Shown here: in pieces, positions 4,265 to 31,920 of the stretch
Position numbering within the stretch: the first letter of the stretch is position 1
How the letters are laid out: each line of letters opens with the position of its first letter
IMG/VR virus record: IMGVR_UViG_3300022752_000006
Location: 1-35,430 of that record
Strand: one strand, 5' to 3'
Length of the DNA stretch: 35,430 bases
From: a virus
Position numbers and translations under genes: made by a program
The notes under the pieces: model-generated
What the model was told of the DNA's origin: nothing
Databases searched by the model: none
The model's input: only the letters and a program-made list of their open reading frames with translations

Positions 4265-4273
4265 TTATCCACA
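4265..4273 (+). promoter_or_regulatory. Perfect DnaA-box 9-mer (TTATCCACA), intergenic
   Basis: An exact DnaA consensus box in the intergenic gap between the hairpin at 4235 and the gene at 4294. Unlike the copy at 2942 it is not constrained by coding. It could be a site for the host DnaA or for the phage DnaA-like protein. Confidence 0.45.
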
Positions 4274-4293: not shown

Positions 4294-4512
4294 ATGAAAT
4301 ACTTATTAGTCTTTACAGCTTGTTCTATGCTTAATAATCAATGTCTAGATACCCTAAGTACAGGTAAATCATTTACCACATTTAGGGAGTGTTCTATTGC
4401 AGGATATGAGATGATCCTGGAGCAGTCTAAGATGTTCCATCCATTACAGTATGAAATAGATAAACCAGCTTTCTTATTTGACTGTATTCCTTTTAAAGAT
4501 CAAGGAATCTAA
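4294..4512 (+). CDS. Small cysteine-containing, possibly exported protein, 72 aa
   Basis: A 72-residue protein starting MKYLLVFTACSMLNNQCLDT. The first 12 residues are a short hydrophobic stretch, perhaps a weak signal, and the rest is soluble with four Cys (10, 17, 33, 64) and a C-terminal FLFDCIPF segment. The CSxLNxQC pattern recurs in the 38-aa protein at 6226. No clear ribosome-binding site precedes the ATG. I do not recognise a family with known function. Confidence 0.6.
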   Translation: MKYLLVFTACSMLNNQCLDTLSTGKSFTTFRECSIAGYEMILEQSKMFHPLQYEIDKPAFLFDCIPFKDQGI

Positions 4513-6872: not shown

Positions 6873-7349
6873 ATGCCATATAAAGATATAGAAATACGTA
6901 AAGCATATTTAAAAGATTACCATAAAAAATATAGTTTAAAAAATAAAAAAAAATTGCAAGAAAAAAAAAGATTATATGTTTTAAACAATAAAGATAAAAT
7001 AAAAGAAAGTAGTAGATTATATTATTTAAAAAATTTGGAACGTATAAAATTATATCGTTTAAAAAATAAAAAAAAAATGAAAAAATATTTTGTAAAATAT
7101 AATTTAAATAATCGTAATTTATTAACTGCACTTGAAGCTAAAAGACGTGCTGCAAAATTAAAAGCTACTCCTAAGTTTGCTAATCTTAAAAAGATAAGAG
7201 AGATATATAAAAACTGTCCCAAAGGTTATCATGTTGATCATATAATACCATTGCAAGGTAAAGAGGTTTGTGGATTACATGTTGAATGGAACTTGCAATA
7301 CCTAACTAAATCTGCTAATTCTTCTAAATCAAACAAACTAATTTATTAA
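6873..7349 (+). CDS. HNH endonuclease
   Basis: A 158-residue nuclease. The C-terminal HNH core is clear: GYHVDHIIPLQGKEVCGLHVEWNLQ spans residues about 116-140 (quoted in parts: HVDHIIPL, LHVEWNLQ), followed by SANSSKSNK. The N-terminal 85 residues are nearly all Lys, Asn, Tyr and Leu, probably a DNA-binding helix array. The coding DNA here is far more A-rich than its neighbours, with many A-tracts, which fits a mobile free-standing homing-type endonuclease that entered the small-gene cluster. A packaging-associated HNH role is less likely because it is far from the terminase genes. Confidence 0.85.
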   Translation: MPYKDIEIRKAYLKDYHKKYSLKNKKKLQEKKRLYVLNNKDKIKESSRLYYLKNLERIKLYRLKNKKKMKKYFVKYNLNNRNLLTALEAKRRAAKLKATPKFANLKKIREIYKNCPKGYHVDHIIPLQGKEVCGLHVEWNLQYLTKSANSSKSNKLIY

Positions 7350-7797: not shown

Positions 7798-7814
7798 ACT
7801 TCGTAGGATTAATC
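7792..7814. terminator. Possible bidirectional terminator between convergent genes
   Basis: GATTAA (7792-7797) and TTAATC (7809-7814) pair around an 11-base loop and are followed by TTTTA on the plus strand. Both stop codons lie inside the stem arms. The stem is short and A+T-rich, so efficiency would be low. Confidence 0.35.
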
Positions 7815-8312
7815 TTTTACATTATCCATCACATACTTATATCTATTCCAAATAATATTCTCTGGTTTCCAGAAATGTTCTTTATTAAATTTCATCTTAA
7901 CATGATGGATCATAGTTGTATGATCTCTGTTACCTAAGATAACTCCAATCTTTGTGAATGGCATATCATACTTATCTCTTAGAACATTAATCAATATTGA
8001 TCTTGCTATTACTGCAGATTGTATTCTAGTCTTAGCAATAATATCATTGACATTAACTCCAAGTTGATTGGCAACAATCACTAACATTTGTTTTACATTC
8101 TCAGGAACAATAACATCATTGATCGTTACATACTTAACAACTTCTTTTATGTTAGGTTGTTTGAATGAATTGCTTTTAAAAAATTGTTTGGCTAATCTAT
8201 ATCCACTTTTAAATCCTAAGCGATAAAACTTTCTATCTCTATCAGATACATTCTCATACACATTGGCTGTGTATCTTAATTTAATTTGTTGTCTAAACTC
8301 TTTTAACGTCAT
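7809..8312 (-). CDS. DnaA domain-IV-like DNA-binding protein (no AAA+ domain)
   Basis: A 167-residue protein whose C-terminal part (residues about 72-142) matches the DnaA DNA-binding domain: a helix with LVIVANQLGVNVNDI, the basic-loop/helix region TRIQSAVIARSILINVL, then PFTKIGVILGNRDHTTMIHH. RDHTT is the DnaA signature, where Asp-His-Thr contact DnaA-box bases. The usual N-terminal and AAA+ ATPase domains are missing; the first 65 residues (RDRKFYRLGFKSGYRLAKQ) are unfamiliar. It probably binds DnaA boxes without ATP-driven filament formation, either directing phage initiation or competing with host DnaA. It is the last gene of the minus-strand DNA-metabolism operon. GAAAGGGAAAGTC just upstream is a good ribosome-binding site. 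Confidence 0.82.
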   Translation of the reverse strand: MTLKEFRQQIKLRYTANVYENVSDRDRKFYRLGFKSGYRLAKQFFKSNSFKQPNIKEVVKYVTINDVIVPENVKQMLVIVANQLGVNVNDIIAKTRIQSAVIARSILINVLRDKYDMPFTKIGVILGNRDHTTMIHHVKMKFNKEHFWKPENIIWNRYKYVMDNVKD

Positions 8313-12466: not shown

Positions 12467-13261
12467 ATGAATGATTTTGTTTACTTTGTTGAATGCGATC
12501 CTAACATTGAACCTGATACAAATTTATTAAAGTTTGTAAAGGTAGGTAAGTCAAGTTCATTATTGGGAATAAAGAAAAGAATAGTTAATTTTGGCGTAGG
12601 CAATCCGTTTAAACTTACTTTTCTTGGTTATATTATTGGCAATGAAACCGAATTACATAATAGATTTATAAAGTATAAAAGAAAAGGAGAGTGGTTTTTT
12701 CTTACTAAAGAATTTCAAAAAGAAATTAACTCATTAAATTTAATAAAAGAAAATTGTAATGATGTTTCAAGTTCTTTTTATAATGATTTTATAATTGATG
12801 AATATGTTTCAATAAAAAAAGATACTATTAGGAATAAATTAAAACAAGAAACTAAAAACAATTTATTTAAAAAAGCACAGGAAAGAAAAGACAAAAAGCT
12901 ATCTCTTGATTTTAGTTCTATTGAAGTATTTGTTTCTGGTTTGTTTAATAATAATAAAGATTATTCTTATAATTTTATTAGTTCCAATAAAGATAATAAA
13001 TTTGATTTTTTTAATTTACCTATTCCTTATCATTCTGTTTATCTTCGTATTAAAAAACAAAATGATAATGAATTGATTGAATTGAGTTTAGAATCTTTAG
13101 AAAACTTATTTAAACTATTTAAAATATTTTATCATAATGATTGGAATTATAATCATCATTTAATTGAAAGAATAAATGCTGATAAAAAAGAACAGTGGTT
13201 AAAAGACTGTAATGTCATAGCTAAAAAATTAGATTTATTAAACGAAAGAATTAATAATTAA
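12467..13261 (+). CDS. GIY-YIG-superfamily protein (T5orf172/MUG113-like)
   Basis: A 264-residue protein whose first 95 residues match the T5orf172/MUG113 branch of GIY-YIG nucleases: VYFVECD, LLKFVKVGKSSS (a counterpart of the second YIG-like strand), KKRIVNFGVGNPFKLTFLGYI and ETELHNRFIKYKRKGEWFFL. The last contains the conserved Glu/His/Arg segment. The C-terminal 170 residues are Lys/Asn/Phe-rich and not recognised. The DNA is more A+T-rich than the neighbouring genes, consistent with a mobile element-like origin. It may be a nicking or homing-type nuclease. Confidence 0.68.
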   Translation: MNDFVYFVECDPNIEPDTNLLKFVKVGKSSSLLGIKKRIVNFGVGNPFKLTFLGYIIGNETELHNRFIKYKRKGEWFFLTKEFQKEINSLNLIKENCNDVSSSFYNDFIIDEYVSIKKDTIRNKLKQETKNNLFKKAQERKDKKLSLDFSSIEVFVSGLFNNNKDYSYNFISSNKDNKFDFFNLPIPYHSVYLRIKKQNDNELIELSLESLENLFKLFKIFYHNDWNYNHHLIERINADKKEQWLKDCNVIAKKLDLLNERINN

Positions 13262-13662
13262 TGGCAAGATATAACTATTTCGTTGGTGGTTTTGGAGATT
13301 TTTATTCTGAATGGCATAGGAATAAATGCGAAGATATTGCTTATATAGATATTGATTCAGTTCCTATTTGTATTAACAAGCCTTGTTGGCAGCCATTAGC
13401 AGTCATTGAAACTGTCTATGATACTGGTAGAAATTACAAGAAATATACCAATGTTGTGGAGTATATAGCCAAAGGCTTAAATATACCCTGTTTTTTGCTG
13501 TATTATAAGCCTATACCTAGATCGGATAGCCTAGAGTTCAAAGTTCAGCGTCTATACCCCTTTAAAAGCGATTTAAACACTATTCTAGAGGAGGAATGGT
13601 ACTACGAAATGCTTAAACTACAGATTGAGCATGATAAAGTATGTAAACACAAGGTAAAATGA
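13261..13662 (+). CDS. Hypothetical marine-phage protein, 133 aa
   Basis: A 133-residue protein that overlaps its upstream neighbour by one base. Segments such as NYFVGGFGDFYSEWHRNKC, IAYIDIDSVPIC, AVIETVYDTGRN, VVEYIAKGLNIPCFLLYYKP and FKVQRLYPFK resemble an alpha/beta nuclease-like arrangement (D-x-D, then E, then a hydrophobic strand), as in restriction-type folds. I recall similar proteins in phage replication regions without known function. Composition is less A-rich than the GIY-YIG gene in front. It is followed by the replication initiator with a four-base overlap. Confidence 0.55.
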   Translation: MARYNYFVGGFGDFYSEWHRNKCEDIAYIDIDSVPICINKPCWQPLAVIETVYDTGRNYKKYTNVVEYIAKGLNIPCFLLYYKPIPRSDSLEFKVQRLYPFKSDLNTILEEEWYYEMLKLQIEHDKVCKHKVK

Positions 13663-14390
13663 ATAAATATACTAAGTTAAATGGCGATATAGTGGAACAC
13701 CCTCTATTTTTAGGCTTACCAGTGAGGAGGAAAGCTCATTGTTTTTCTGTGTTGGTAATGCTTTTAAGGTACGCTAATTATAAAACTGGCGAGTGCTACC
13801 CAAGGCTTTCAACCATTGCCAAGCCTCTAGGTTTATCAAATGTTACAGTTTATAAGTGCATTAACACAATGATTGAAGGCGGCATACTCTTAAAAGAACG
13901 CTTACCTTCTACTAATTTATATAGAATTAACCCAGAATTTATCCACAGTGATATTAAAACTGTTAAGATCACTACACCAAGTGATATTAAAACTGTTAAG
14001 GGGGATATTAAAACTATTAAGGGGGGTATTAAAACTGTTAAGGTATTAATAGAACATAATATAGAACATTATATATATAACATAGACAAGATCATAAATA
14101 ATAATAAAGGTGATAAGGATAGAATAGTTTATTTAATCGCACAGGCTATTCCCTTGCCAGAATTAAACAACCTATTATTACAAAACATTCATTCATATTA
14201 CGTAAGGTTAGCCATAGATAAACATAGGGAAATGTTGCGTCAGAAAAACTTGTTGCCTGAAAGTGTTGCTAAGGAAAAGATACGTGCCTCATTAAAGAAT
14301 ACAACCAAGCAGAAATCTCCATATTACAAAGGTAAGGTGGAGTACAACAAAAGAAATAACCTAGATTGGAAAGGCAATCCAAAGAATTAA
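13659..14390 (+). CDS. O-like replication initiator with HTH domain and internal iterons
   Basis: A 243-residue protein. Residues 1-90 form a winged-helix/HTH domain of the kind seen in phage replication initiators and replisome organisers: LNGDIVEHPLFLGLP, KTGECYPRLSTIAKPLGLSN, VTVYKCINTMIEGGILLKER and LYRINPEF. Residues 98-128 are a repeated DIKTVK segment, which is encoded by four DNA iterons. The C-terminal 100 residues are basic and could contact host helicase or loader; no Walker motif is present. Together with the iterons, the neighbouring DnaA box and A+T-rich stretch this looks like lambda gene O with its origin inside. The phage has no recognisable helicase or polymerase, so host replication proteins must be recruited. 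Confidence 0.7.
   Translation: MNKYTKLNGDIVEHPLFLGLPVRRKAHCFSVLVMLLRYANYKTGECYPRLSTIAKPLGLSNVTVYKCINTMIEGGILLKERLPSTNLYRINPEFIHSDIKTVKITTPSDIKTVKGDIKTIKGGIKTVKVLIEHNIEHYIYNIDKIINNNKGDKDRIVYLIAQAIPLPELNNLLLQNIHSYYVRLAIDKHREMLRQKNLLPESVAKEKIRASLKNTTKQKSPYYKGKVEYNKRNNLDWKGNPKN
13939..13947 (+). promoter_or_regulatory. Perfect DnaA box (TTATCCACA) adjoining the iterons
   Basis: An exact DnaA consensus 9-mer lying two bases upstream of the first iteron in the initiator gene. Its place beside iterons and an A+T-rich stretch makes a functional role more likely than for the other two copies. Confidence 0.6.
13950..14042 (+). repeat. Four 18-bp iterons (consensus GATATTAAAACTGTTAAG)
   Basis: Copies lie at 13950-13967, 13983-14000, 14004-14021 and 14025-14042. 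The first two are identical; the third differs at one base (CTATTAAG), and the fourth at one base (GG at the start). Start-to-start distances are 33, 21 and 21 bases, so the last three are phased at two helical turns. All keep the reading frame and encode (D/G)IKT(V/I)K. Same-strand direct repeats like these are the usual binding sites of initiators of the lambda O or plasmid Rep type. Confidence 0.85.
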
Positions 14391-14395
14391 ATGTT

Positions 14396-14869
14396 ATGGC
14401 AGGTTTCAAATCAAAGAAGATATTCTGTATGGATATGTCAAGACTTTCGGGTAAACCTTGTCAAGCAAAAGGTTATCCTACTAATAGCTTTAATAAACAA
14501 GGCATTCAGATTTATAAATGTAGATTTCATGGAGCTCAAAACACGAACTTCTATGGGTTTAGGGACAGAGCCAATAGAGGAGGATATAATAAACCAGGTT
14601 ATACAGATGAGAAGAAGATTAAATCACTTGCAAGTTTAAAACAATTTAGAGATAAGCCTATTGAATATGTCAGAGATTACTACGAAACCAAAGTCAAACC
14701 AAGAGTTGATAGTCTTGGAAGATACAATTCTAAATACAGTATTAGAGCAATTAAGCGAAGGAAAAACACTAGCAAGTATAAGGAAGGAAGGAACATTACC
14801 GATCAGCTTGATCAAGTTTTATCAGTTCTTGAAGCAAGAGGAAAACAAAGAAATCAAAGCCAAGATTGA
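14396..14869 (+). CDS. Cys/His-containing protein overlapping the small terminase gene
   Basis: About 157 residues from MAGFKSKKIF; the frame extends upstream to 14366 inside the initiator gene. Residues 9-45 contain a likely zinc site: FCMDMSRLSGKPCQAKG and IYKCRFHGAQN, a CRFHG motif I recall in small phage proteins encoded beside small terminases. The last 68 residues share DNA with the small terminase in another frame and look Arg/Lys-rich and irregular, so they may be a by-product of overlap. Possible function: DNA-binding packaging accessory or host-related protein. The true end of the functional domain is uncertain. Confidence 0.55.
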   Translation: MAGFKSKKIFCMDMSRLSGKPCQAKGYPTNSFNKQGIQIYKCRFHGAQNTNFYGFRDRANRGGYNKPGYTDEKKIKSLASLKQFRDKPIEYVRDYYETKVKPRVDSLGRYNSKYSIRAIKRRKNTSKYKEGRNITDQLDQVLSVLEARGKQRNQSQD

Positions 14870-30582: not shown

Positions 30583-31920
30583 ATGCCAAATATTGGTTTT
30601 GGTTTAGATAGCAACGAAACAGCTCAAGAAACTGGATTTGATAAATATAAATTAAGTTTATCTCAAACATTAGGCGTAGCAGCTGAAGATGCTTGGCACT
30701 TTAATCCTTTATATTCAATTTATAGATATGGTAATCTACTTGAAACAAGAGCTGATGGACCACCTGTAGGAGGAACTGATGAATTTAATGCTCAAGCATA
30801 CTCATCTACAGAAACTGAACCATTAATACCAAAAGATGAATTAAATAGAAAATATAGTAAACTTGGATTGTTATTTGAACAAGATGAAAAACAATCAACA
30901 GTTGATTTGTTAGCAAAATATAAAAAAGATGAAATAGAAAGAAATGAAAGATTACAACGTGGTCAAACAGGTGTTGTTGCTGGTACTTTAAAATTTGCAA
31001 CAGGATTAGGAGTTAGTATGGCTGATCCAATTAACATTGCATCTGCATTTGTTCCTGTAATAGGTGAGGCTAGATTTGCATCTTTAGTTGCACGACAAGG
31101 ATTTACTACTGCACGACTTGCCAAAGGTGCTATTGAAGGAGGCGTGGGTGCTGCATTAATAGAACCTATTGTTTATGGAGTAGCAAAAGCTGAACAAGCA
31201 GATTATGGTTTAATGGATAGTTTATTAAACGTAACATTTGGAACTGTTATTGGTGGTGGATTGCATGTTGGTATTGGTGCATTAAAAGATTACAAAACAA
31301 ATTTAGATTTTAAAGAAAGAATACAACAAGCAAGAGAATCTGCAGGTATAGATTCTAAAGAAGATCCTGCTGTAAATTTATATAAAGAATATTATCCAAT
31401 TAATTCTGAAACAATGTTAAGACTTGCTGAAACAGATCCAGAAACTAGAAGATTATTATTAGTTAAATCAATGTCTGATTTATTAAATGAAAGAAGCGTT
31501 GATGTAACACCTATTGCAAACTTAGATCCAAAATTAAGAGATGCACAAATCAATGATGATATTGCAATTAGAGATAAAAATAATTCTAATAAATCTGTTG
31601 ATGCAAATGCTGACTTACCATCAAGACAAGTATCAGATGAAAAAGTAAATAAACAAGAATTTAAAACTGAAGAGCAAAATACTTTAGATAGAATAGAAAA
31701 TACTTTAAAAACTAAAGAAATGGATCAAGTAACGATTGAAAGAGAAAATAAATCATTAGATGATCAATTAAATACTTTAAAAGAAAATCAAAAAGATCTT
31801 AAAATTGAAGATAGTGATGAATTAAAATCTTCTAAAAAACAATCAGAAGAAGTTACTACGAAACAAAAAGAAATAAAAGATGCTATCATTGATGGTATTA
31901 ACTGTATTAACAAAGTTTAA
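30583..31920 (+). CDS. Internal virion protein, first part of the gp16-like region
   Basis: A 445-residue protein. Residues 1-100 include AAEDAWHFNPLYSIYRYGN, typical of the first segment of large internal proteins. A hydrophobic, Gly/Ala-rich stretch at about 130-225 (FATGLGVSMADPINIASAFVP, GVGAALIEPIVYGVA, VTFGTVIGGGLHVGIGAL) could insert into membranes during ejection. The last 130 residues are a charged coiled coil. No lytic transglycosylase site was found. The next gene begins two bases after the stop; together they are in the size range of a gp16-type protein. Confidence 0.65.
   Translation: MPNIGFGLDSNETAQETGFDKYKLSLSQTLGVAAEDAWHFNPLYSIYRYGNLLETRADGPPVGGTDEFNAQAYSSTETEPLIPKDELNRKYSKLGLLFEQDEKQSTVDLLAKYKKDEIERNERLQRGQTGVVAGTLKFATGLGVSMADPINIASAFVPVIGEARFASLVARQGFTTARLAKGAIEGGVGAALIEPIVYGVAKAEQADYGLMDSLLNVTFGTVIGGGLHVGIGALKDYKTNLDFKERIQQARESAGIDSKEDPAVNLYKEYYPINSETMLRLAETDPETRRLLLVKSMSDLLNERSVDVTPIANLDPKLRDAQINDDIAIRDKNNSNKSVDANADLPSRQVSDEKVNKQEFKTEEQNTLDRIENTLKTKEMDQVTIERENKSLDDQLNTLKENQKDLKIEDSDELKSSKKQSEEVTTKQKEIKDAIIDGINCINKV

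Follow-up and report, generated by a model that had tools for sequence, protein, structure and literature searches.

Iterons inside an O-like initiator gene mark a probable lambda-type replication origin in HTVC010P-type pelagiphages and their relatives

In lambdoid phages, iterons and an A+T-rich tract lie in the middle of the O gene (PMC7466680). HTVC010P-type phages have been counted among the ocean's most abundant viruses; no description of their replication origin was found, and no open-access paper searched pairs 'pelagiphage' with 'iteron'. According to passages of the paper on Skadi, a phage of this type, it lacks DNA polymerase, helicase and primase genes of its own; those passages mention a lambda-like helicase loader, leaving its gene unnamed, and take the regulators of the phage as transcriptional (PMC10504331). 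Here, a virus record of 35,430 bases from a marine SAR11-type phage (IMGVR_UViG_3300022752_000006; one strand, called the window below, with coordinates referring to the whole record) was analyzed around an array of direct repeats lying inside one of its genes (Table 1). This array is very probably a phage replication origin of the lambda type, embedded in its own O-like initiator gene. Relatives, close as well as distant, have repeats of different sequence at this position, as lambda does, and the gene family, usually labelled as transcription regulators, therefore most likely starts phage replication.

The array consists of four 18-bp direct repeats with start-to-start spacings of 33, 21, and 21 bp and begins ~290 nt into the gene. 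The sequence-only reading had located the repeats, their 21-bp phasing, and a DnaA box two bases upstream correctly, and its 35,303-bp circle likewise follows from a 127-bp terminal repeat in the window. With up to 3 mismatches allowed, the 18-mer occurs four times in 35.4 kb, always within the array, compared to a mean of 0.14 in shuffled sequence. When codons were shuffled synonymously, keeping the protein along with its SDIKTVK peptide repeat, the observed repeat score was reached in none of 1000 trials. The repeats are genuine, and neither chance nor the encoded peptide accounts for them. Across the genes compared, the 90 bp after the iterons average a GC content of 0.256, versus 0.324 and 0.316 on either side. 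In the window, the most A+T-rich 70 bp (14044-14113) have an A+T content of 83%, which 2.6% of this genome's 70-mers attain and which is not extreme here, so that the earlier description of about 70 bases of nearly pure A+T was overstated.

The encoded protein matches Pfam HTH_36 (E=4.8e-8), and its best PHROG match is family 391, 'replication initiation O-like' (E=7.6e-7), with matches to other initiator PHROGs as well. An AlphaFold2 model (35 sequences, mean pLDDT 77, pTM 0.41) predicts a winged helix, disorder at residues 99-132 (pLDDT below 50), and then a helical C-terminal domain. The predicted disordered residues coincide with the array, which is thus placed where the protein tolerates many sequences.

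Relatives came from scans of viral contigs and from isolated HTVC010P-type pelagiphages, which carry the gene mostly under the name 'putative transcriptional regulator'; the comparison set held 148 distinct family genes of at least 630 nt, with 42 dissimilar representatives. The array is kept in close relatives, and the nearest diverged one, L007 (80% identical), retains all four iterons. In distant relatives, different repeat sequences occupy the homologous place, lineage by lineage: CAGTCAGGCTGACTG-like in class B, ATGTATAAAAATGAAACATC in class C, ATGGGTATTAAAGAACACCC in class D, AGATAGCCGT in class E, which includes HTVC010P (initiator AGE60327; repeats at 31910 and 31932 of its genome), and GATGTATCTAATAGAAACAT in class F, with further types besides. 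For 95% of the 42 representatives, compared with 39% of codon-shuffled versions, the best direct repeat maps to the central linker (0.40-0.60 of the gene), and its offset within the linker is 21 or 22 bp in 32 of 42 (18% in shuffles) and exactly 22 bp in 24 of 42 (5% in shuffles), although these representatives share ancestry and the counts are therefore not independent trials. What is independent is the occurrence of six or more unrelated repeat sequences at one place with the same spacing. This helical spacing, 21-22 bp or about two turns, is usually kept in the family. As a control, the same scan applied to the lambda O gene found the known iterons (p=0.015; spacings of 20, 24, and 23 bp), with an A+T-rich tract next to them and at a distance from the gene start similar to that in the pelagiphage family. 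The relatives' repeats, the lambda control, the predicted disordered linker, and the A+T-rich tract together support the lambda-like, iteron-bearing origin that had been proposed from the window.

It is very improbable that the repeats lack a role as DNA and simply reflect a peptide repeat or tandem duplication in a tolerant linker. The copies in the window are all in frame, in a linker predicted to be disordered, and peptide repeats alone do yield some DNA repeats (mean null score 15.8). However, copies in relatives are out of frame: with a spacing of 22 bp, the three copies of class B fall in frames 1, 2, and 0 and the copies of class E in frames 1 and 2. One DNA word is thereby read as different peptides, and the signal therefore lies in the DNA and not in the protein. 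Moreover, place and spacing persist while sequences differ, and such repeats are rare in other genes of HTVC010P and the window (a significant repeat in 1 of 29). Likewise improbable is the view that the gene product is a transcription regulator, the function assigned to it in databases, with the repeats as its operators. The domain is of the winged-helix type, the annotation of most isolates agrees, and a Foldseek search of PDB folds returned only generic winged-helix regulators, none at E <= 0.001. Yet the genome carries such sites only within the gene itself, ~290 nt from its start, promoter-like matches in this region do not exceed background, and the PHROG matches point to replication initiators.

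A DnaA-dependent origin, at which host DnaA or a phage DnaA domain-IV protein would bind the box and help to open the DNA, is also unlikely. The box is perfect and immediately precedes iteron 1, perfect boxes number 3 in the window versus ~0.4 expected, and TTWTNCACA occurs close to the linker in a small number of freshwater relatives. In addition, the phage encodes a free-standing DnaA domain-IV protein of 167 aa (7809-8312, minus strand; Bac_DnaA_C, E=2.8e-14; motif GNRDHTTMIHHVK) that has no AAA+ domain, is related to the Skadi DnaA-like protein, and has relatives at 36 loci in viral contigs. In L007, however, the position of the box reads TTTGTCTATAG while all four iterons are kept, and distant marine members have no DnaA box near the linker, suggesting that the box is probably incidental; matches to the looser TTWTNCACA show no enrichment in the window (4 versus 7.8 expected). 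Related DnaA-IV genes have no perfect box in the 129 kb around them, so there is nothing to connect the protein with the site at 13939; it could be a competitor of host DnaA at oriC or a transcription regulator. Thus, where conservation of repeats, spacing, and box in related genes had been named as a check, the iterons persist in L007 and the place and 21/22-bp spacing in most relatives, but the box does not, and the proposed recruitment of DnaA finds no support. The other perfect boxes are on the plus strand at 2942-2950 and 4265-4273, the latter intergenic, before an open reading frame at 4294.

Iteron type tracks the N-terminal helix-turn-helix (HTH) domain, not the C-terminal domain. HTH identity is 61-100% in pairs of the same type and at most 66% in pairs of different type. 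Without exception, the 1525 pairs whose N domains are similar (>=80%) and whose C domains differ (<=60%) have a common type (classes E, B, I, and D); the 58 pairs in which the C domains are similar (>=70%) and the N domains differ (<=65%), mostly B/I and F/I, never do. These pairs are not independent of one another. Such co-variation would be expected of an initiator with an embedded origin and is not proof of recognition. As a tentative proposal, somewhat more doubtful than probable, HTVC010P-like SAR11 phages and their freshwater relatives may split into ~10 origin-specificity groups, each an HTH-iteron cassette moving as a unit and combining with C-terminal domains that are interchangeable, with co-infecting phages replicating independently or competing according to iteron type.

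Several observations weigh against an origin at this site. Linkage alone would give the same co-variation, since the iterons come immediately after the part of the gene that encodes the HTH. No clear direct repeats were found by the repeat scan in HTVC203P (in L023), L101, and the L053/L078 group, and many class E genes have two short copies that are significant collectively, not singly. No homolog of lambda P was found; the genes downstream of the initiator encode a conserved protein ('methylase' in Skadi) and the small terminase, although a diverged loader is possible. GC skew, suggested earlier as a check, does not mark the array: both cumulative and fourfold-site skew are patchy and dominated by gene orientation, with no inflection there, and proved uninformative.

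Two further measures were discarded. Dyad symmetry is evident by eye in some iteron types (CAGTCAGGCTGACTG, TAGCCGTTTTACGGCTA), and in 4 of 42 genes it is significant against codon shuffles (0.05 level); as a general test it was rejected, individual genes mostly not exceeding the shuffles. Synonymous constraint as judged from the L007 pair was rejected too: synonymous changes number 0 in the iterons versus 22 in 97 codons of the HTH, but near-identity extends into the sequence immediately beyond the iterons, and recombination therefore confounds the test.

If the array is the origin, the N-terminal winged helix of the O-like protein would bind the iterons, about two helical turns apart, to form an O-some-like complex, which would strain and open the adjoining downstream A+T-rich tract. 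The host replisome may then be recruited by the helical C-terminal domain, directly or via a partner, a step proposed because related phages are reported to lack polymerase, helicase, and primase. A function is thereby proposed for a gene named 'putative transcriptional regulator', and a testable candidate origin is given base-level coordinates in cultured isolates, including HTVC010P, Skadi, HTVC034P, and others.

Table 1. Coordinates of the candidate origin and its gene in the window
Feature	Position	Strand	Remarks
O-like replication initiator gene, 243 aa (predicted)	13659..14390	+	N-terminal winged helix, disordered linker, helical C-terminal domain; Pfam, PHROG, AlphaFold2
Perfect DnaA box TTATCCACA, probably incidental	13939..13947	+	two bases before iteron 1
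Iteron 1 GATATTAAAACTGTTAAG	13950..13967	+	0 mismatches
Segment coding for predicted disordered linker, residues 99-132	13953..14054	+	AlphaFold2; nearly coincides with iteron array
Iteron 2 GATATTAAAACTGTTAAG	13983..14000	+	0 mismatches
Iteron 3 GATATTAAAACTATTAAG	14004..14021	+	1 mismatch
Iteron 4 GGTATTAAAACTGTTAAG	14025..14042	+	1 mismatch
A+T-rich tract, presumed unwinding element	14043..14132		GC 0.189 over 90 bp; relatives' tracts A+T-rich too

The genes flanking the initiator (13261-13662 and 14366-14869) have conserved counterparts in HTVC010P (41% identity) or Skadi (31%) and make up a syntenic cassette; Pfam gives no support to the name 'methylase' that the downstream one carries in Skadi. 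A search of bacterial and archaeal genomes for the initiator gave a single match, on a contig binned as Woesearchaeota (L193, PBPJ01000001.1, from a metagenome-assembled genome). This contig encodes a pelagiphage initiator, and its size (17,456), the same as that of the viral contig L136, points to a phage contig placed in the wrong bin. Elsewhere in the window, gene 6873-7349 contains 45-bp tandem repeats, is strongly A-rich, and weakly matches endonuclease VII.

Among known systems, DnaD-like helicase loaders and other phage HTH_36 initiators share the winged-helix N-terminal domain, and PHROG 186, 'DnaD-like helicase loader', is among the matches; in contrast, no match to the DnaD C-terminal domain was found. 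The lambda ori/O system is similar in having iterons inside the initiator gene just past the DNA-binding domain, about two turns apart, with an adjoining A+T-rich tract. The window protein matches the O-like PHROGs 391 and 678 weakly, and lambda O matches both; PHROG 678 is matched by the N-terminal region of the HTVC010P and L017 members and by the N-terminal half of lambda O. These weak matches point to homology of the N-terminal DNA-binding domain to the lambda O family. For the C-terminal half, no similarity to lambda O families was detected: no family match of the window protein extends past residue 154, whereas in lambda O the match to PHROG 391 spans the C-terminal half. The iteron sequences are also unlike those of lambda, and the spacing is 21/22 bp rather than 20/24/23 bp. 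Iteron copy number differs among relatives, as in the origins of the Shiga-toxin lambdoid phages P27 and 933W, which have six copies versus four in lambda (PMC7466680). The iterons of those phages, however, are nearly those of lambda, whereas the pelagiphage family swaps whole iteron types, extending lambdoid-style co-variation of initiator and iterons to an unrelated phage family.
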